A stretch of DNA of 32,805 bases from the NCBI GenBank assembly GCA_024639005.1, contig JAHEJD010000004.1:62092-94896 (forward strand). Reading direction: 5' to 3'. The position numbers and the translations under genes are program-made. Below the pieces are notes generated by a model. It ran no database searches and was not told where the DNA came from. It saw nothing but the letters and a program-made list of their open reading frames with translations. This document shows positions 24,598 to 32,805 of the stretch, one piece after another (positions within the stretch are counted from its first letter, which is position 1; every line of letters begins with the position of its first letter). Source of the DNA: Chromatiaceae bacterium. GTDB taxonomy: Bacteria; Pseudomonadota; Gammaproteobacteria; Chromatiales; Chromatiaceae.

Positions 24598-26370
24598 ATG
24601 TGTGGAATTTGCGGCGAAATTCGCTTCGACGACACCCTCCCTGCGGTAGATCGCGTGGCACGAATGAACCACGTGCTGTTCCCACGCGGCCCAGATGGCA
24701 GCGGCATCCACCTGGCGGGCCGCCTCGCAGTCGGTCATCAGCGGCTCAAGATCCTCGATCTCAGCGAGCATGCGCAGCAGCCCATGATCGACAGCGAGCT
24801 GGGTCTTGGCATCGTGTTCAATGGCTGCATCTACAATTTTCGCGATCTGCGCGTTCAGCTGCGCGCCCTCGGTTATCGCTTTTTCTCCGATGGCGATACC
24901 GAGGTCATCCTCAAGGCCTATGCCGCCTGGGGGATAGAGTGCGTGAACCGGTTCTACGGCATGTTTGCGTTTGCGATCTGGGAGCGCGACTCGGGCCGCC
25001 TGATCCTGGCCAGGGACCGCTTCGGCATCAAGCCCCTGTACTACACAGAGTCGTCGCACAGCCTGCGCTTTGCGTCCACGCTGCCGGCGCTGTTGGCCGG
25101 CGGCGATATCGATACCGACATCGACGCCGTGGCGCTGCATCACTACATGAGCTTCCACGCGGTGGTGCCGGCGCCGCACACGATCATCCAGGGCGTGCGC
25201 AAACTGCCGCCCGCGACAGTCCGCGTGATCGATGCGGATGGACGCAGTCGTGACCACCGTTTCTGGCGGCTGCATTTCGGCGCCCGCCCCGAGGAGCAGC
25301 AACTGGCCTACGAGGACTGGCAGGAGATCACACTCGATACGCTGCGCAGGGCCGTTGAACGCCGCCTGGTCGCCGATGTGCCGGTCGGTGTGTTGCTGTC
25401 CGGCGGACTGGATTCGAGTCTGATCGTAGGCCTGCTCGCCGAACAGGGCCAGCGCGGCCTCAACACCTTCTCGGTCGGCTTCGAATCGGTCGAAGACGAG
25501 GCCGGTGACGAGTTCCAGTATTCGGACATCATCGCCAGACACTTCGACACCGATCACCATCAGATACGGGTCGACTCGGCGCGTCTGCTGCCGGCATTGC
25601 AGCACTGTATCCAGGCGATGAGCGAACCCATGGTCAGCCATGACGTCATCGGCTTTTATCTGCTCTCGCAAGAGGTCGCTAAGCATGTAAAGGTGGTGCA
25701 AAGCGGACAGGGCGCGGACGAGGTTTTCGCTGGCTACCACTGGTATCCGCCGCTGCGCGACAGCAGCGATCCGGTCGCCGACTATGCAAATGTATTTTTC
25801 GACCGAGACCACAGCGAATTCGCCGAGGCCGTGCATCCGCGTTTTGTCAGCGAGGACTTCAGCCGGGCCTTCGTCGCGCAGCACTTCAATACGCCCGGCG
25901 CGCAGCGTCCGATCGACAAGGCGCTGCGCCTCGATACCCAGATCATGCTGGTCGACGACCCGGTCAAGCGCGTCGATAATATGACCATGGCCTGGGGCCT
26001 CGAGGCGCGTGTCCCCTTCCTGGATCACGAACTGGTCGAACTTGCCGCACGCATCCCCGCCGAGTTCAAGATCGCCTCAGGCGGCAAGGGCGTTATCAAG
26101 GAGGCAGCCCGCTCGGTGATCCCGAACGAGGTCATCGACAGGCCGAAAGGTTACTTTCCAGTGCCGGCACTGAAGTACCTGGATGGCGAGTATCTCGAGT
26201 TTGTTCAGGATGCCTTGGCGCGCCCGGCCGCACGCGAACGCGAGCTGTTCCGTGACGACTATCTCAAGCGACTGATGGCCGAGCCCAAAAAGCACATCAC
26301 GCCGCTACGGGGTTCCAAGGTCTGGCAGATCGCCCTGCTGGAGATCTGGCTACAGCAGCACGGCATCTGA
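24598..26370 (+). CDS. asnO: N-acetylglutaminylglutamine amidotransferase (asparagine-synthase family)
   Basis: This enzyme amidates the terminal carboxyl of the dipeptide N-acetylglutaminylglutamine with glutamine-derived ammonia, giving the osmoprotectant NAGGN. The 590-residue protein has Cys2 as N-terminal glutaminase nucleophile (MCGICGEI), FPRGPDGSG (28-36), FNGCIYNFRDLR (74-85) and the synthetase P-loop SGGLDSS (268-274). QGADEVFAGY and the late LEARVPFLDHELVE follow. It resembles asparagine synthase B, but adjacency to the GNAT/ATP-grasp gene and the M42 gene identifies the NAGGN 'trio' known from Pseudomonas and Sinorhizobium. The 154-base gap before it holds a possible -10-like AATACT near 24538 and a small GAGGG-CGC-CCCTC hairpin. 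Osmotic induction is expected but not shown. Confidence 0.93.
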   Translation: MCGICGEIRFDDTLPAVDRVARMNHVLFPRGPDGSGIHLAGRLAVGHQRLKILDLSEHAQQPMIDSELGLGIVFNGCIYNFRDLRVQLRALGYRFFSDGDTEVILKAYAAWGIECVNRFYGMFAFAIWERDSGRLILARDRFGIKPLYYTESSHSLRFASTLPALLAGGDIDTDIDAVALHHYMSFHAVVPAPHTIIQGVRKLPPATVRVIDADGRSRDHRFWRLHFGARPEEQQLAYEDWQEITLDTLRRAVERRLVADVPVGVLLSGGLDSSLIVGLLAEQGQRGLNTFSVGFESVEDEAGDEFQYSDIIARHFDTDHHQIRVDSARLLPALQHCIQAMSEPMVSHDVIGFYLLSQEVAKHVKVVQSGQGADEVFAGYHWYPPLRDSSDPVADYANVFFDRDHSEFAEAVHPRFVSEDFSRAFVAQHFNTPGAQRPIDKALRLDTQIMLVDDPVKRVDNMTMAWGLEARVPFLDHELVELAARIPAEFKIASGGKGVIKEAARSVIPNEVIDRPKGYFPVPALKYLDGEYLEFVQDALARPAARERELFRDDYLKRLMAEPKKHITPLRGSKVWQIALLEIWLQQHGI

Positions 26371-26378
26371 GCAGACCG

Positions 26379-28118
26379 ATGAGCAAAGAGGAACGTTATC
26401 GCACGCGACTGTTACGACAAAGGGCGCCCAGTCTGTCCGGGGCCGAACCGACTGCCGAGCGCGGCAAACCGCCCCCGAAGGCCGACGCAATCATCGACTG
26501 CGGTTGGGGTCGGCTGATTTTTGCCCATACATTTCGGGATAATCGCAGACTGGCCGATGCGCTGTTGGCCGAGCTGCCCGGCAAGCGGGATATCGCTTTC
26601 TATGTCGGCGATCCGCATGTGCTGCTGGCGATGGAGCCGCAGAACCTGTTCCTTGACCCTTCCCACACCTATCGTCTCTGGCTGGATCGCTATACGGTGT
26701 CACAGCTGCGGCCGCGCGGTTTCAGTGTGCGCCTGATGAACAGCCGGGTAGACGCCGAAGCAGTGCATCGCGTCTACTTAGCGCGGCGCATGATACCGCC
26801 GCCGATCGAGTTCATGTGGAACATGCGGACCTCGCGGGCGCTGCAGTTCTTCATTGCCGCAGACATCCACACCGGCGAAGTCCTCGGCGTTGCTACCGGG
26901 ATCGATCATGTCGAAGCGTTCGCCGATCCGGAAGAGGGCGCGAGCCTGTGGGCGCTGGCGGTCGATCCGCAGGCGCGTCACCCGGGCGTCGGGCAGGCCG
27001 TGGTGCGGCACATGGCGGAATATTTCATCGGACGCGGCCGAAGCTATCTCGACCTTTCCGTAATGCACAACAATCGCGAGGCGATCCGGCTCTACGAGCG
27101 GCTCAAGTTCAAACGTATCAGCGTATTTACGGTCAAGAACAAGAACTCGTTTAACGAACCGCTGTTCACCGGCACCCAACCCGAAGAGAAGCTGAATCCC
27201 TACGCACAGATCATCACCCGCGAGGCGCAGCGGCGCGGTATCTCAGTAGATGTACAGGATGCCGAGGGGGGCTTCTTTGAGCTCTCGCTGGGTGGCCGCA
27301 GTATCACCTGTCGCGAGTCACTGAGCGAATTGACGACTTCGATCGCGATGAGCCGCTGCGATGACAAAGCGGTCACCCACAGGCTGCTTCGCCGCGCCAA
27401 TCTGCGGGTACCGGAACAGCTGTTGGTGACGGACACCGCCCAGGCAGAGCGATTTCTCGAACAGCGTGGCGCCGTGGTGGTAAAGCCCGCTCGCGGCGAA
27501 CAAGGCAACGGAATCAGCGTCGATGTGCGCGATGCGGCCGCGTTACATGCCGCGATCGACGAGGCGAGGAAGTTTTGCGAGAACGTATTGCTGGAAGAAT
27601 ACGTGCGTGGAGGCGACCTGCGGATCATCGTAATCGATGGCAAAGTGGTTGCCGCAGCCACACGCAAGCCGCCGCGCATCCAGGGTACCGGCCGTGACAG
27701 CATTCGCCAGTTGATCGAAAAACAGAGTCGCCGCCGCGAGGCCGCCACCGGCGGTGAAAGCCGGATACCGCTCGACCGCGAAACCGAGCGCTGCGTCGAG
27801 GAAGCAGGCTTCTCAATGGACGATATCCTGCCTTACGGTGACTATCTGACGGTGCGCAAGACCGCCAACCTGCACACCGGCGGGACCATCCACGATGTGA
27901 CCTTGAAACTGCACCCGGCACTGCGCAAGGCAGCGATTGGCGCCGCGGCAGCGATCGATATTCCGGTCACCGGGCTCGATTTCATTGTCCCCGACCCAAA
28001 GGGCGCCGACTACGTCATCATTGAGGCGAACGAGCGACCCGGCCTGGCGAACCACGAGCCACAGCCGACCGCTGAACGCTTCATCGACCTGCTGTTTCCA
28101 AAGACCGCGGAGCGCTAG
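26379..28118 (+). CDS. ngg: N-acetylglutaminylglutamine synthetase
   Basis: This bifunctional enzyme joins glutamines into N-acetylglutaminylglutamine, using an acetyltransferase and an ATP-grasp ligase domain. In the 579-residue protein residues about 115-250 are a GNAT domain (LWALAVDPQARHPGVGQAV at 190-208; NNREAIRLYERLKFKR at 231-246). The C-terminal half (about 320-575) is ATP-grasp, with the nucleotide-binding VVVKPARGEQGNGIS (366-380), LLEEYVRGGDLRI (404-416) and the metal/ATP site IIEANERPG near 553. It starts 8 bases after asnO and is certainly co-transcribed. A perfect 10-base hairpin spans its stop codon. Confidence 0.94.
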   Translation: MSKEERYRTRLLRQRAPSLSGAEPTAERGKPPPKADAIIDCGWGRLIFAHTFRDNRRLADALLAELPGKRDIAFYVGDPHVLLAMEPQNLFLDPSHTYRLWLDRYTVSQLRPRGFSVRLMNSRVDAEAVHRVYLARRMIPPPIEFMWNMRTSRALQFFIAADIHTGEVLGVATGIDHVEAFADPEEGASLWALAVDPQARHPGVGQAVVRHMAEYFIGRGRSYLDLSVMHNNREAIRLYERLKFKRISVFTVKNKNSFNEPLFTGTQPEEKLNPYAQIITREAQRRGISVDVQDAEGGFFELSLGGRSITCRESLSELTTSIAMSRCDDKAVTHRLLRRANLRVPEQLLVTDTAQAERFLEQRGAVVVKPARGEQGNGISVDVRDAAALHAAIDEARKFCENVLLEEYVRGGDLRIIVIDGKVVAAATRKPPRIQGTGRDSIRQLIEKQSRRREAATGGESRIPLDRETERCVEEAGFSMDDILPYGDYLTVRKTANLHTGGTIHDVTLKLHPALRKAAIGAAAAIDIPVTGLDFIVPDPKGADYVIIEANERPGLANHEPQPTAERFIDLLFPKTAER

Positions 28119-28148
28119 CCAAGACCGCGCTTTGTGTCCGGTCTTGGC
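28118..28148 (+). repeat. Perfect 10-bp hairpin at the ngg stop codon
   Basis: GCCAAGACCG (28118-28127) and CGGTCTTGGC (28139-28148) are exact inverse complements around an 11-base loop. The left arm begins with the last base of the ngg TAG. No U-run follows. It could protect the asnO-ngg mRNA 3' end or attenuate read-through into the peptidase gene. Confidence 0.6.
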
Positions 28149-28221
28149 GCGTATGGTTGGGCATCGAAATATCATAAGATGCTAAGCCGTGTGGAATACC
28201 CCAACCCGGACTGAACCCTCT

Positions 28222-29331
28222 ATGAAGAACCTGCCGATCGACCAAACCTATGTCCAGGATGTACTCTTTCGGCTATTGAACACACCTAGCCCGAGCGGTT
28301 ACACAGACCGGGTAGTGCATCTGGTCGCGGACGAGCTCGAAAAACTGGGAGTCCAGGTCGAGCTGACGCGACGCGGCGCTATACGTGCCACCCTCAACGG
28401 AGAGCGCAGCAGCCCGGACCGCGCCATTGTGGCGCACATCGACACCCTCGGCGCAATGGTGAAGGGGCTAAAGGACAACGGGCGCCTCGAGCTGGTTCCG
28501 ATAGGCCACTGGAATGCCCGCTTCGCCGAGGGCGCAAGGGTAACGCTGTTCACCGACATAAGCTCGCATCGCGGCACTATCCTGCCGTTGAAGGCGTCCG
28601 GGCACACCTTTGCGGACGAGATCGATAAGCAGCCGTCCAATTGGCAGAACATCGAACTGCGCGTCGATGAGGTCTTCTACTCGCGTAAAGACCTGATGCG
28701 GCTCGGCGTGCATGTCGGCGATTTTGTTGCCATCGATCCACAGCCTGAGGTTCTGGAAAACGGCTATATCGTCTCCCGACACCTGGACGACAAGGCCGGC
28801 GCGGCCGTGTTGCTCGGCGCCGTCAAGGCAGTGGTAGACAACAAGATCAAGCTGCCCGTCGACTGCCACCCTCTGTTCACGATCTCGGAAGAGGTCGGCT
28901 CCGGCGCCTCCGCTGTATTGCACGGCGACGTCTCCGAGATGCTGACGCTGGACAACGGCACCACGGCGCCGGGCCAGAATTCCAGCGAGTTTGGTGTCAC
29001 CATCTGCATGGCAGACATGAGCGGCCCGTTCGACTACCACCTGACCAACTATTTGATCCGGCTGTGCCAGGAGTTCGAAATCCCTTACCAGCGGGATATC
29101 TTTCGCTTCTATCGCTCGGACAGTGCAGCGGCGGTGGAGTCGGGCGCCGACTTGCGCACGGCGCTGGCCACCTTCGGTGTCGACGGATCGCATGGCTGGG
29201 AGCGCATCCACTGGAATGCGCTCGAGTCCTTGACCAAACTGGTCACGGTCTATATGCAGTCTCCGCCGCTGTTCCTGCGCGACCAAGACGACATCGGTCC
29301 GCGCTTCGGCTTCCCGATGCAGCCGGCCTAG
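28222..29331 (+). CDS. M42-family metallopeptidase of the NAGGN locus
   Basis: This third member of the NAGGN trio is a dinuclear metal aminopeptidase/deacylase-like hydrolase, possibly degrading or trimming the osmolyte; its true substrate is unproven. From ATG 28222 the protein has 369 residues. Candidate metal and catalytic residues are His72 and Asp74 (AHIDTLGAM), Asp189/Asp190 (RHLDDKAGA), Glu223/Glu224 (ISEEVGSGA), Asp244 (TLDNGTT) and His324 (GSHGWERIH). A GTG at 28189 would add eleven residues (MWNTPTRTEPS) without family resemblance; neither start has a strong SD. It is separated from ngg by 103 bases containing a strong hairpin, so it may be expressed at a different level. Confidence 0.9.
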   Translation: MKNLPIDQTYVQDVLFRLLNTPSPSGYTDRVVHLVADELEKLGVQVELTRRGAIRATLNGERSSPDRAIVAHIDTLGAMVKGLKDNGRLELVPIGHWNARFAEGARVTLFTDISSHRGTILPLKASGHTFADEIDKQPSNWQNIELRVDEVFYSRKDLMRLGVHVGDFVAIDPQPEVLENGYIVSRHLDDKAGAAVLLGAVKAVVDNKIKLPVDCHPLFTISEEVGSGASAVLHGDVSEMLTLDNGTTAPGQNSSEFGVTICMADMSGPFDYHLTNYLIRLCQEFEIPYQRDIFRFYRSDSAAAVESGADLRTALATFGVDGSHGWERIHWNALESLTKLVTVYMQSPPLFLRDQDDIGPRFGFPMQPA

Positions 29332-29403: not shown

Positions 29404-30627
29404 TCAGGGTCGAGCCAACGCACACTGGACCACATCGATCTGGCGAGCGCGGAACCCCGCCTCGCAGAATGCCAGGTAGTAGCGCCACATACCGCGGAAC
29501 CGCTCGTCGTAACCGTGCGCCTCCATCCATTCGGTGCAGCGGTCGAATTTTGCGTGCCAGTGTGCAAGGGTATCCGCATAGTCGAGGCCGAAAGCCGCGA
29601 TACGCTGTTGTATCAGGCCTGCCCCCGCGGCCAGCTGCTGCAGATGCTTCTTGGTCGGTAACATACCACCGGGGAAGATGTAGGTCTGGATAAAGCCGCC
29701 CGGATTTGCAGCGTATGCGTCGAAATACGCCTCGTCGATCGTGATCACCTGCAATGCAGCACGCCCGCCCGGTCGCAGGCATCGGCTGAGCGTCGAGAAG
29801 TAACTCTGCCAGTACTGGCGACCGACCGCCTCGAACATCTCGATCGACACGATATGATCGACGTGCCCCTCGAAATCACGGTAATCGCACAAACGCAGCT
29901 GGACCCGCTCCGCCAGACCGGCCTTCGCTGTGCGTGCCTGGGCATAGTCGAGCTGCTCGCGCGACAGCGTAATTCCGGTCACCCGAAAACCCTGGCGTGC
30001 TGCATACTCGGCGAAGCCGCCCCAGCCGCAACCAATCTCGAGGATATGCTGCCCGGGAGATGCATCAAGCAGTTTCAGCATCTGCGCGTACTTCCGCTGC
30101 TGAGCGACATTGAGCGGACCACCCTGCTCGAAAATCGCCGCAGAATAGGTCATCGTGGAATCTAGCCACTGCGCGTAGAAGTCGTTGCCCAGGTCGTAGT
30201 GCGCCGCGATATTGCGCCGGCTGCCGCGCCGGCTGTTGCGGTTCAGCCAGTGCTGCATGCGCACGGTCGCCCGAGTCAGCGGATGTCGGGTGTCGGATTC
30301 GGCGTAGACATCGAGGTTCACCGCCAGCAGCTCGAGCAGTGCGGCGAGATTGGAGGATGTCCAGTCGCCCGCGATAAAGCCTTCGGCGAAGCCGAGATCG
30401 CCGCGCCAAAATAGCCGGCGCAGTAGCGCCGCCGGGCGCCCGATCGTCACATCCGCCGTCGGACCCGGCTCCGTCCCGCGCAGTACGAAGGGACGAATCG
30501 TACGCAGCGCGACTTGGAGTGAGCCGCGGCGCAGTCGCGTCATTTGATCTATCAAACGTCGCTCATACCACGCCATCTCGGCAACTGGTGGCATCTCGAC
30601 AGCGAGAGAACCCGTCTGCGAACGCAT
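29404..30627 (-). CDS. Cyclopropane-fatty-acyl-phospholipid synthase family methyltransferase (Cfa/UfaM-like)
   Basis: This enzyme is predicted to transfer a methyl group from S-adenosylmethionine to an unsaturated acyl chain of membrane phospholipids. The 407-residue protein has the Cfa N-terminal lipid-binding region, HYDLGNDFYAQWLD (143-156), SAM motif I ILEIGCGWGGFAEYAA (195-210), and YIFPGGMLPT (316-325). The E. coli Cfa bicarbonate ligands Cys139 (YSCAYW) and His266 (MFEHVG) are both alanine here: YSAAIF with Ala163 and MFEAVG with Ala267. This points to the UfaM type, which makes methylated unsaturated acids, rather than a ring-closing cyclopropane synthase. It is the last gene of an operon, one base after DUF1365. 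Confidence 0.92.
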   Translation of the reverse strand: MRSQTGSLAVEMPPVAEMAWYERRLIDQMTRLRRGSLQVALRTIRPFVLRGTEPGPTADVTIGRPAALLRRLFWRGDLGFAEGFIAGDWTSSNLAALLELLAVNLDVYAESDTRHPLTRATVRMQHWLNRNSRRGSRRNIAAHYDLGNDFYAQWLDSTMTYSAAIFEQGGPLNVAQQRKYAQMLKLLDASPGQHILEIGCGWGGFAEYAARQGFRVTGITLSREQLDYAQARTAKAGLAERVQLRLCDYRDFEGHVDHIVSIEMFEAVGRQYWQSYFSTLSRCLRPGGRAALQVITIDEAYFDAYAANPGGFIQTYIFPGGMLPTKKHLQQLAAGAGLIQQRIAAFGLDYADTLAHWHAKFDRCTEWMEAHGYDERFRGMWRYYLAFCEAGFRARQIDVVQCALARP

Positions 30628-30628
30628 G

Positions 30629-31402
30629 TCAACTTACCTCTTCGGTCGGTGGCACAGGTTTACGATGGAAGCGCTCTCCTTTTAACCAAATCTTGAGCGC
30701 TTGCCAATGAATGGCCGCTATGACCTTCAGCGTCTGCGCCGGCACGCGTAACGTCTGCCAGAGAAGTTGCCCCGTCGTGAACGGCCGTCGCTGGCCGGTC
30801 TGACTCGCTATCAGCATGAGTCGATCGCCATCGAACTCGCGGATGAACACGCGGAGTTCCTCGTCCGGCCTCGCCAACTCGAAATCGTAGCTTGCCTGCA
30901 TACCGATGAAAGGCGAGACATGGAAATCCTTGGCATGGCGGTCGCACAATGGCCATTCCGGCTGTCCAGGGCCGGGCCGGAGCAGGTAGCAGTGTCGCTC
31001 GCCAAAGGTGTTGCGGACCTCGGCAATGACGGCGGCGGGTCGCCCCTCGACGGTCTCACAAAACCACAGGCTCAGCGGATTGAATACCCAGCCGAGAAGG
31101 CGCGGAAAGCACAGCAGGCGAATCTTCAGCGCACCGCCGTCCAGTCCGTGGCTGGCCAGCACATGTTCGGCCCAGCCGCGCAAGTCTCGACTGCCTGCCG
31201 GAAGATGGTCTCGGTCGTAGAAACTCAAAAGGTTAAAGCGATTGCGTGAGAACACCGGTGTCTTCTTTGCCGCCTGATCGATCGAATCGATGTCCAGCAG
31301 CAGGCTGAAGACGCGATAGCGAAATCGGTAGGCGGCCGTAAAGAATCGTCGATGCATTACCTCGGCGCTGTAGAGACTGACCACGTCCGAAGACAGACTC
31401 AT
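30629..31402 (-). CDS. DUF1365 family protein
   Basis: The 257-residue protein belongs to DUF1365, which regularly sits between a FAD-dependent amine-oxidase-like gene and a Cfa-family gene. Its biochemical role is unknown. Family landmarks are SAEVMHRRF (12-20), YRFRYRVFSLLLDID (25-39), FNLLSFYDRDH (56-66), the highly conserved GWVFNPLSLWFC (104-115) and HAKDFHVSPF. Its His/Asp-containing conserved segments could be catalytic. The start overlaps the upstream oxidase stop (ATGA at 31399-31402), and its stop lies one base before the methyltransferase ATG. All three genes are thus translationally coupled, implying one pathway in lipid modification. Confidence 0.93.
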   Translation of the reverse strand: MSLSSDVVSLYSAEVMHRRFFTAAYRFRYRVFSLLLDIDSIDQAAKKTPVFSRNRFNLLSFYDRDHLPAGSRDLRGWAEHVLASHGLDGGALKIRLLCFPRLLGWVFNPLSLWFCETVEGRPAAVIAEVRNTFGERHCYLLRPGPGQPEWPLCDRHAKDFHVSPFIGMQASYDFELARPDEELRVFIREFDGDRLMLIASQTGQRRPFTTGQLLWQTLRVPAQTLKVIAAIHWQALKIWLKGERFHRKPVPPTEEVS

Positions 31403-32733
31403 GCCGCCTTGCCTACCAGCTGCGGGACCAGCGTAAGGTCGCGTGAGGCCTGAACCTCAGAAGCCCACGGGATCCGCGCACCCAGCGCCTGAGCAACCTC
31501 GACGCCAGACCGTATACCGTCCTCGTGAAAGCCATAGCCCGTCCAGGCGCCCGCAAACCAGGTGCGGGCGCGTCCCTGGATGCGGTGCAGCTGCTTTTGC
31601 GCCGCCAGTGCTGCCGCGTCGAACACCGGGTGATGATATTCATAGCAGTCGACGACCGTTTCAGCGCGAGGCTCCCGCAGCGGGTTGAGACTGACAAAAT
31701 AGTCCTGACCGGTGGACAGGCGCTGCAGAGAGTTCATCCAGTATGTGACGCTGACGGCCCGCGACGCGTCACCGGCCGATTCGCTCAGGTAATTCCAGGA
31801 GGACCAGACGCGGCGTGCCTGCGGCATCAGGTCGGCGTCGCGGTGCAGAAACACGCGATTTGCCTGATAGGGGATCGCACTGAGGATCTGGCGCTCCGAT
31901 GGGCTTGGATCTGCGAGCAGCGCCAGCGACTGATCACTGTGACAAGCCAGCACAACGTCGTCGAACGCCTCGCGCTGGCCGTCGGAAAAGATCAGCGTGA
32001 CCTGCTCCGCGTCGCGTTCGATTCGGGCGACGCGGGCACCCGTCACTGCGCGCTCACCGAGGTCAGCGATCAAGCTCTGCACGTAGGTGCTGGCGCCGCC
32101 GTTTACCGTCCGCCATTGCGGCCGGTCGGCCACACGGATCAAGCCGTGGTTGGAAAAAAATCGCAGAAAACTCAGTGCGGGAAACCGTGCGATCTGGCCG
32201 CGTGGGCATGACCAGATAGCGGCGGCCATTGGATAGAGGTACTGAGCGCGGAAGCGTTCGCCGAAGCCGCCGCGGTCGAGGAACTCCCCAAGCGAGACGT
32301 CCGCCGCAGGCGGCACCAGAAGGGCGCGCTGCGCGGCGCGATTGAATCGCACGATGCTCCAGAGCAGGCCCCAGAAGCGCCCGCTGACCAGATTGCGCCG
32401 CTGCCCGAAAAGGGTGTCGAGGTTGGTGCCGGCGTATTCAAGCCGCCCGCTGTCAAAGGACGCAGAAAATGACATGTCGGTCGGATAGGTGTCGACGCCG
32501 AGGTGTTCGAACAGCGCGGATAGCAGCGGGTAGTTTTCACGGTTGAAGACCATGAAGCCGGTGTCTATCGCGACCTGCCCGTCCCGATCAGCGATGACCG
32601 CGGTGTTGGTGTGGCCACCAAAGCGCGTAGCGGCCTCAAAGAGACGTATGCCCGGCTCGCTGCGCAGCAGCCATGCGGCTATCGTTCCGCTGATGCCGCT
32701 GCCGATTACCGCCACTTGTCTGTTTTTGTCCAT
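31399..32733 (-). CDS. FAD-dependent amine-oxidase-like oxidoreductase (UfaD-like)
   Basis: This predicted flavoprotein is of the NAD(P)/FAD-binding amine-oxidase fold. The 444-residue protein begins with a dinucleotide-binding GSGISG (11-16), the acidic residue Glu33 and RFGGHTN (38-44). IDTGFMVFNRENYP follows, and the C-terminal FAGAWTGYGFHEDG resembles the flavin-contacting motif. In Rhodobacter a comparable gene (UfaD) with a Cfa-like methylase (UfaM) makes furan fatty acid precursors; the same role here is an inference. ATG 32733 is preceded by GGGA about 6 bases away. It is the first gene of the three-gene operon, and its upstream DNA carries TGTATAGC direct repeats. Confidence 0.93.
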   Translation of the reverse strand: MDKNRQVAVIGSGISGTIAAWLLRSEPGIRLFEAATRFGGHTNTAVIADRDGQVAIDTGFMVFNRENYPLLSALFEHLGVDTYPTDMSFSASFDSGRLEYAGTNLDTLFGQRRNLVSGRFWGLLWSIVRFNRAAQRALLVPPAADVSLGEFLDRGGFGERFRAQYLYPMAAAIWSCPRGQIARFPALSFLRFFSNHGLIRVADRPQWRTVNGGASTYVQSLIADLGERAVTGARVARIERDAEQVTLIFSDGQREAFDDVVLACHSDQSLALLADPSPSERQILSAIPYQANRVFLHRDADLMPQARRVWSSWNYLSESAGDASRAVSVTYWMNSLQRLSTGQDYFVSLNPLREPRAETVVDCYEYHHPVFDAAALAAQKQLHRIQGRARTWFAGAWTGYGFHEDGIRSGVEVAQALGARIPWASEVQASRDLTLVPQLVGKAA

Positions 32734-32737
32734 TAAT

Positions 32738-32784
32738 AATCCCGCTTTGTCTGGTTTTTATTGCTTTCTAAGTCGAATCCCGCT
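32738..32784 (-). repeat. Repeated AGCGGGATT in the oxidase leader
   Basis: AGCGGGATT (minus strand) occurs at 32746-32738, where it supplies the likely ribosome-binding site, and again at 32784-32776, overlapping the end of the second TGTATAGCG repeat. Two exact 9-base copies 38 bases apart in a 72-base leader may be chance or a second regulatory element. Confidence 0.3.
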
Positions 32785-32800
32785 ATACATAGGCTATACA
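32781..32800 (-). promoter_or_regulatory. Two TGTATAGC direct repeats spaced 11 bp
   Basis: On the minus strand TGTATAGCC (32800-32792) and TGTATAGCG (32789-32781) are head-to-tail copies starting exactly 11 bases apart, one helical turn. They end 47 bases before the FAD oxidase start. Tandem 11-bp repeats with TGTA-type cores are the operator form of the MerR-type CarH/LitR regulators. Further copies could lie beyond the window edge. Confidence 0.55.
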
Positions 32801-32805
32801 AAAAA

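Follow-up and report, generated by a model that had tools for sequence, protein, structure and literature searches.

The window, that is the whole stretch of 32,805 nucleotides from a Chromatiaceae bacterium that was analysed, represents the end of contig C59 of an assembly that comprises 155 contigs and is 95.8% complete. Its terminal part carries three genes encoding a protein of the FAD amine-oxidase type, a DUF1365 protein and a Cfa-family methyltransferase (Table 1). The same three domain types occur in the same order in the ufaD-ufaO-ufaM genes of R. palustris (RPA2571-2570-2569), which are described as necessary and sufficient for a furan fatty acid, with DUF1365 being contained in UfaO (PMC7380195). 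Since the gene set and the gene order correspond to those of R. palustris, the term lipid-modification operon used in an earlier, sequence-only reading of this DNA can be narrowed down to that of a probable operon for furan fatty acids, ufaD-ufaO-ufaM. The osmoprotectant genes that are convergent with the lipid operon all scored above the respective NCBIfam cut-offs.

The window overlaps exactly with the start of a second contig, C21, on which a divergent operon of three genes is followed by a photolyase gene (Table 1). The first gene of this operon encodes a member of the glutathione peroxidase family (GPX) and the third a MerR-type regulator. The join of both contigs is supported beyond the overlap by the same gene order in relatives belonging to the genus, as the order lipid operon - GPX - MerR is present on single contigs in the genomes G001, G007 and G008, and G003 and G004 likewise have ufaD and GPX in divergent orientation. 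The ufaD and GPX genes are separated by a shared 95-bp intergenic region.

Table 1. Coordinates of the features at the locus and in its continuation (window positions unless a contig is named)
Feature	Position	Strand	Remarks
NAGGN (N-acetylglutaminylglutamine amide) osmoprotectant genes	24598-29331	+	amidotransferase, synthetase, M42 peptidase
Cfa-family methyltransferase gene, ufaM-like	29404..30627	-	PF02353, E 3.5e-80
DUF1365 gene, ufaO-like	30629..31402	-	PF07103, E 4e-78
FAD amine-oxidase-type gene, ufaD-like (fatty acyl desaturase of furan fatty acid synthesis)	31399..32733	-	PF01593; gene order
Exact 121-bp overlap with the start of C21	32685..32805		C21 continues the chromosome
Candidate -35, TTGCTT	32761..32766	+	3/6 letters of TTGACA, consensus match only; 17 bp before the first box
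TGTATAGC-CTA-TGTATAGC	32782-32800	minus	pattern search of the window; start-to-start distance exactly 11 bp
Putative tandem operator, two TnnACA boxes (TATACA-N5-TATACA)	32784-32789, 32795-32800	+	11 bp start to start
GPX (glutathione peroxidase family)	C21:145-705	+	first gene of the divergent operon; Pfam
DUF3429	C21:702-1169	+	second gene of the divergent operon
MerR	C21:1243-2229	+	third gene; start re-assigned; 33927-34913 in extended window coordinates (C21 position + 32684)
Photolyase	C21:2817-4292	minus	after MerR
Second ufaD-ufaO-ufaM operon (L012)	C17:1-3602		

The two 11-bp-spaced copies of TGTATAGC that had been noticed upstream of the FAD oxidase-DUF1365-Cfa operon are indeed present, and the pair is the sole match in the window at up to three mismatches, with 0.05 matches expected by chance. 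Read on the opposite strand, it comprises two boxes of the TnnACA type, by which the repeat box of CarH is described (PMC9304148), and the TATACA pair is located 51-67 bp 5' of the ATG of the FAD-oxidase gene. The exact pattern was listed twice in the assembly, on C59 and on C21, which reflects one physical site within the contig overlap. A two-mismatch copy of the TGTATAGC pair is present at the same relative position on the short contig C17. Other matches in the assembly with two or three mismatches look like background, with nine in all versus 18 for the reversed control pattern. A third box was not found beside the pair, the 11-bp positions on either side reading TCGAAT and GCCAGG. Likewise, the window contains no inverted half-site TGTnnA before the pair, and its promoter contains no T..ACA pair at 18 bp. 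Candidate -35 sequences at an equal spacing of 17 bp from the first box were detected on C17 (TTGACA, matching the consensus at 6/6 letters) and in G001 (TTGACT, 5), G004 (TTGACC, 5) and G008 (TTGCAA, 4). The first box would thereby be a candidate -10 region of the divergent GPX-DUF3429-MerR promoter, and a protein bound at this position would be expected to block that promoter. With respect to the promoter of ufaD itself, inspection by eye yielded no convincing -35/-10 elements overlapping the boxes.

A search of nine whole genomes of the genus with the pattern CTAWACA-N4-CTAWACA resulted in five exact physical sites (G000, G001, G003, G006 and G008), all of them just upstream of GPX, and in six further matches with one mismatch, which is level with the eight of the reversed control. 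At the GPX promoter, two mismatches were found in each of G004 and G007, and G005 has a single box only. The boxes of G002 read TCGACA and TGGACA and lie between ufaD and the MerR operon with the 11-bp spacing being kept, and the separate GPX promoter of this genome is devoid of the pair. In G006, the site is kept upstream of GPX, though the ufaD-like gene is located elsewhere. No boxes were detected within 351 bp upstream of the 14 ufaD loci outside the genus, nor at the ufaD copies located separately in G005 and G006 (42% identity). The loci outside the genus and the arrangement in G006 indicate that the presence of the site is tied more to the MerR operon than to the lipid operon. A lack of the repeat upstream of orthologous operons, which the sequence-only reading had named as evidence against itself, thus applies in part, the exact repeat being a property of the GPX promoter in five of the nine genus genomes and not of the ufaD loci outside the genus. 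In the interpretation of the site, the MerR operon accordingly takes the central place that the sequence-only reading gave to the lipid operon.

A second operon of the ufaD-ufaO-ufaM type was found on contig C17 (Table 1). The divergent promoter is present there as well, and the boxes of the putative operator deviate by one mismatch. The DNA of this operon is 71% identical to that of the window's operon, which is about as far as G001 (72%), and the eight other genus genomes yielded one match each. Both values make it less likely that C17 carries a second operon of the same organism, and C17 is probably a stray contig of a relative.

The regulator encoded by the divergent operon resembles CarH in its DNA-binding part. 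CarH is the best solved relative of the helix-turn-helix (HTH) region (5c8d, E 2.6e-12), with the match being limited to residues 39-102, and the NCBIfam CarH model likewise matched in the HTH only, with 53.9 bits and thus far below the cut-off of 400. Neither a Pfam B12-binding domain nor PF02607 was matched at E <= 1, and the protein contains neither DxHxxG nor W-x9-EH, which we take to be the B12-binding motifs of CarH. Among the MerR relatives, W-x9-EH is present in 0/85 and DxHxxG in 1/85 (L085). The assembly contains only one other match to this regulator, a weak one in a 168-aa frame (E 1.7e-5), and further matches in the eight other genus genomes are no stronger than 7.6e-6. Accordingly, a divergent merR/litR gene, which the sequence-only reading had proposed to look for beyond position 32805, does lie next to the site and is CarH/LitR-like, whereas the B12-binding domain expected along with it was not found. 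The notion of a B12-responsive operon is contradicted by these motif and domain searches as well as by the lack of any stronger second MerR match in the assembly.

In the AlphaFold model of the MerR protein (mean pLDDT 79, pTM 0.46), the HTH is followed by a middle domain of the CheY/Rossmann type and by a helical end. This middle domain, predicted to be Rossmann/receiver-like, resembles the B12 domain of CarH in its modelled fold. When the model was applied in Foldseek, CarH ranked first (E 8.9e-8) with a TM of only about 0.2, that is, a loose match of the whole protein. A second aligner placed receiver domains and CarH level, with Z about 12, and the rmsd of 11-16 in the CarH rows indicates that the domains are placed differently in the MerR model and in CarH. 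The MerR gene of G006 is intact and specifies 327 aa, since the stop within the match lies just before the gene start; this genome was left out of the MerR alignment A1.

The helical C-terminal domain contains three cysteines and one histidine, C257, C259, C280 and H291. In an unselected set of 85 proteins, the CxC..C pattern is present in 82 (missing in L108, L112 and L121), C280 in all 85 and H291 in 81. All four residues are invariant in 60/60 sequences including six stand-alone proteins, with the limitation that this set is a selected one whose added sequences were picked by the motif pattern, which was passed by all six stand-alone proteins and all eight further MerR loci tried. For alignment A2, 61 representatives were reduced to 55 by removal of L074, L116, L121, L128, L129 and L133; together with the protein of the window's genome, 46 sequences were aligned and ten remained unaligned (L082, L094, L098, L102, L104, L108, L110, L112, L113 and L118). 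Predicted alone, the domain forms three helices (pLDDT 89). Foldseek yielded nothing better than E 1.2, and sequence searches with this domain gave weak, scattered matches, the best ones having E 0.00086 in Pfam (2/46 members), E 0.018 in NCBIfam and E 0.77 in the PDB. The structure 7f7p (Z 8.2, rmsd 2.5, 82 aligned residues) was rejected as a fold relative, as the match is within the arrangement common to helical bundles. A profile of the domain matched in at least 11 of 398 genomes, the window's genome being among them.

The connection between boxes and regulator was analysed in 80 named loci encoding this MerR type, which are the best 80 of at least 571 relatives; L096 and L132 were dropped for having less than 200 bp of upstream sequence, leaving 78 loci. 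Within 560 bp upstream of MerR, a same-strand T..ACA pair exactly 11 bp apart was detected in 41 of these 78 loci from the best 80 relatives, compared with 0-6 loci for each other spacing between 7 and 40 bp, including 3/78 for 18 bp. A set of 200 dinucleotide shuffles resulted in a mean of 1.06 and a maximum of six loci with the 11-bp pair, and control stretches from the same loci contained it in 12 of 1214 cases. When the loci were thinned to less than 60% MerR identity, the 11-bp pair was retained in 21/39, and the other spacings reached a mean of 1.91 and a maximum of 5. Since the upstream stretches end at the start of the tblastn match, a site near a mis-set start could be missed; with 30 bp more of upstream DNA the number increased to 42/78. 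No exact double box was found in 37 of the 78 loci. The four genus loci of the set (L060-L063) showed no site in the searched stretch because the genus site, where present, is more distant from MerR and precedes GPX or a different gene of that operon; the 11-bp test is thus independent of the window. This enrichment provides the strongest evidence for a role of the window's repeat as putative operator for this MerR.

The boxes of the wider family often read TGGACA, TAGACA or TCGACA, with the 11-bp spacing still being kept. In eight plasmid and phylum loci encoding this MerR type (L151-L154 and L199-L202), namely plasmids of Burkholderia (two), Caballeronia and Methylomagnum (one each) and four genomes drawn from the phylum, the exact double box is absent (0/8), and the TnnACA grammar as written is therefore not universal for this type of regulator. 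Three boxes are present in only three of the 41 pair-bearing loci (L084, L089 and L093). Additionally, an inverted half-site TGTnnA was observed 15 or 16 bp before the TnnACA pair upstream of MerR in 13 of the 41 loci (L066, L067, L086, L091, L092, L117, L128, L130, L131, L133, L134, L135 and L139), which suggests a three-part operator in part of the family. Upstream of MerR in L105 and L106, the sequence TGTACA-N5-TGTACA is present, in which each box is its own reverse complement, so that the pair is found on both strands. This MerR type also occurs in the purple sulfur bacteria Thiocapsa, Lamprobacter, Thiocystis and Thiohalocapsa (L082, L086, L092, L104, L112 and L117), where no match to other proteins of the window's cluster was detected within about 8 kb (tblastn, E <= 1e-6).

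The locus shares features with several characterised systems. The CarH/LitR proteins of class I from Thermus thermophilus, Bacillus megaterium and Myxococcus share the CarH-like MerR HTH and the 11-bp TnnACA tandem overlapping the promoter, whereas the window's MerR is devoid of the B12 motifs and has the predicted domain order HTH - Rossmann - helical Cys/His domain. The characterised CarH operators contain three or four boxes, compared with two in the window, and one or two boxes with degenerate neighbours are described as sufficient in some cases (PMC9304148). The class II LitR proteins PplR/PmlR of Pseudomonas, which act with short LOV proteins, likewise represent B12-less MerR proteins encoded beside photolyase and ufaM genes and act as repressors on the target promoter. 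They contain PF02607 and bind TGTACA-N12-TGTACA, with boxes 18 bp apart (PMC9758184); in contrast, the regulator described here lacks a PF02607 match, its putative site has the 11-bp spacing, and no exact LOV motif was found in the window's genome. The parallel with the Pseudomonas LitR-ufaM system that had been drawn from the window is consequently valid for the lipid operon but not for the spacing of the boxes.

With respect to class III, the LitR protein of Burkholderia multivorans reportedly depends on a non-B12 chromophore (PMC6739363). The CxCP..C..H domain recurs at the C-terminus of MerR proteins from Burkholderia, including one encoded in a light-type island, with about 31% identity over 94% of the length. 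The class III protein as published may have this Cys/His domain as well. None of the Burkholderia loci examined shows two exact boxes 11 bp apart. A further likeness by description is that to the V. cholerae MerR protein VCA0056, which is part of a predicted operon with phr and needed for light-responsive genes; in this species, the response to blue light runs via ChrR and a MerR-like protein, in contrast to the window's genome, which lacks a ChrR match, and the Cfa-type gene VC1122 is light-induced (PMC5241685).

The neighbourhood of the regulator provides hints on the signal. The photolyase gene adjoins the MerR operon on C21, a photolyase-family gene is located two genes after MerR in L200, and photolyase-family, folE and cryptochrome-type genes are neighbours in several MerR loci. 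A plasmid island of Burkholderia anthina combines genes for a lipocalin, ufaD/O/M-like proteins, FolE, a sigma factor, DUF3429, this MerR type and a photolyase. Light is suggested by the photolyase gene at the present locus, the gene in L200 and the B. anthina island, and MerR systems of Pseudomonas are reported to answer to blue light (PMC9758184). A light or photo-oxidative signal for the MerR protein appears plausible from this gene context.

Comparison of the loci shows TnnACA boxes, the 11-bp spacing, a place on the putative -10 region facing the MerR operon and a tie to this MerR type. On these grounds, the repeat is very probably a CarH-type operator and, by its position, a repressor site of the MerR operon. 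Of the view that the repeat represents a CarH/LitR-like operator, the 11-bp TnnACA grammar stands, as it goes with the adjoining MerR type, and the B12 part has to be given up. In the proposed mechanism, the MerR protein would sit on the boxes and block RNA polymerase, resulting in autorepression. The C-terminal three-Cys/one-His domain would read a signal, most likely light or light-made oxidants, upon which MerR would be released and the GPX, DUF3429 and MerR genes switched on. Through the shared intergenic region, from which control of the lipid operon by the site is inferred, ufaD-ufaO-ufaM would probably be switched on as well and furan fatty acids would enter the membrane; B12 would not be involved. 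As a whole, we consider it likely that the MerR protein of the LitR/CarH family encoded by the divergent operon has its operator in this repeat and that the mechanism operates in this way.

Sensing by the Cys/His domain of MerR itself is the preferred reading, and the nature of the sensed signal gives rise to the first alternative. The conserved three cysteines and one histidine, together with the position of GPX as first gene of the operon, would also fit a protein that senses oxidants, lipid peroxides or a metal, with light acting indirectly or being irrelevant. We regard this as unlikely, although it deserves serious consideration, since light is indicated by the photolyase-family, folE and cryptochrome-type genes that adjoin MerR in several loci; the two readings are inseparable by sequence.

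A blue-light flavoprotein could instead remove MerR from the DNA, either a short LOV protein, as with the established pair of PmSB-LOV and PmlR2 (PMC9758184), or a BLUF protein, as in E. coli BluR/BluF. The window's genome does contain one BLUF gene, and at least one is present in six of the nine genus genomes. None was found in G002, G004 and G006, all of which contain MerR, and G006, which consists of one contig and is listed as 100% complete, combines the lack of BLUF with an intact MerR and the exact operator. An exact LOV motif, in a form that we assume to be diagnostic and by which a variant motif would be missed, occurs in none of the sequences of the window's genome (95.8% complete) and in one of the nine genus genomes. 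A flavoprotein partner is improbable in the light of this distribution.

The repeat might also be no operator, TATACA merely representing a -10 hexamer and the second copy a chance occurrence or a second promoter. A -35 candidate does precede the first box at a distance of exactly 17 bp in the window, C17, G001, G004 and G008, but the second box follows exactly 11 bp further on in five of nine genomes, with one to two mismatches in C17, G004 and G007, and G002 and much of the wider family have TGGACA, TAGACA or TCGACA boxes, which are unlike a -10 hexamer and nevertheless spaced by 11 bp. This explanation is very unlikely. Slightly less credible still is transcription of the operon by an ECF sigma factor (sigma-E) held by ChrR, for which precedents are the increase of furan fatty acid in R. 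sphaeroides upon loss of chrR (PMC7380195) and the blue-light response shared by ChrR and MerR in V. cholerae, along with the light induction of VC1122 (PMC5241685). Unlike the R. sphaeroides furan system, the window has a MerR-type site in the promoter region; a ChrR cupin was matched nowhere in its genome and in two of the nine genus genomes, and the window's promoter contains no sigma-E-like sequence with fewer than 3 mismatches of 10. Finally, a B12 (AdoCbl)-dependent CarH that represses the lipid operon in the dark would account for the 11-bp TnnACA grammar and the CarH-like HTH but is hardly tenable, since the only CarH-like regulator found in the assembly is devoid of the B12 motifs and of a Pfam B12 domain at E <= 1; a non-canonical cofactor is conceivable in view of the CarH-B12-like fold predicted for the middle domain, as is a missing regulator gene in view of the completeness of the assembly.

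Under the preferred reading, in which MerR senses through its own Cys/His domain, a more general scheme may tentatively be considered, although we would rather expect it to fail than to hold in full. A large branch of CarH-type repressors would have kept the 11-bp grammar and swapped the B12 photoreceptor for the three-Cys/one-His helical domain, a new sensor of light or singlet oxygen, perhaps with an Fe-S or other metal centre, that also occurs as a stand-alone protein, once beside stress genes. For a CarH/LitR branch that is independent of B12, the data yield a DNA code that can be put to the test, TnnACA-N5-TnnACA, as well as a site of four residues and a link to probable furan fatty acid genes. 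Should the Cys/His domain act as sensor, it would be of a new type and could serve as a genetic switch without B12. In the literature, no title or abstract on this pair of operator and domain was found, most subscription papers being beyond the reach of the search.

Stand-alone proteins of 102-112 aa with the domain are encoded in at least six other genomes (L203-L208), and the four Cys/His residues are kept in 6/6. In five of these loci, a T..ACA pair is present only in L203, outside any GPX promoter. In the sixth, L206, the gene of the stand-alone protein is located beside lipocalin and GPX genes (Pfam), and the GPX promoter contains, as one case, the sequence TGTACA-N5-TATACA with boxes 11 bp apart, 34 bp before the GPX start.
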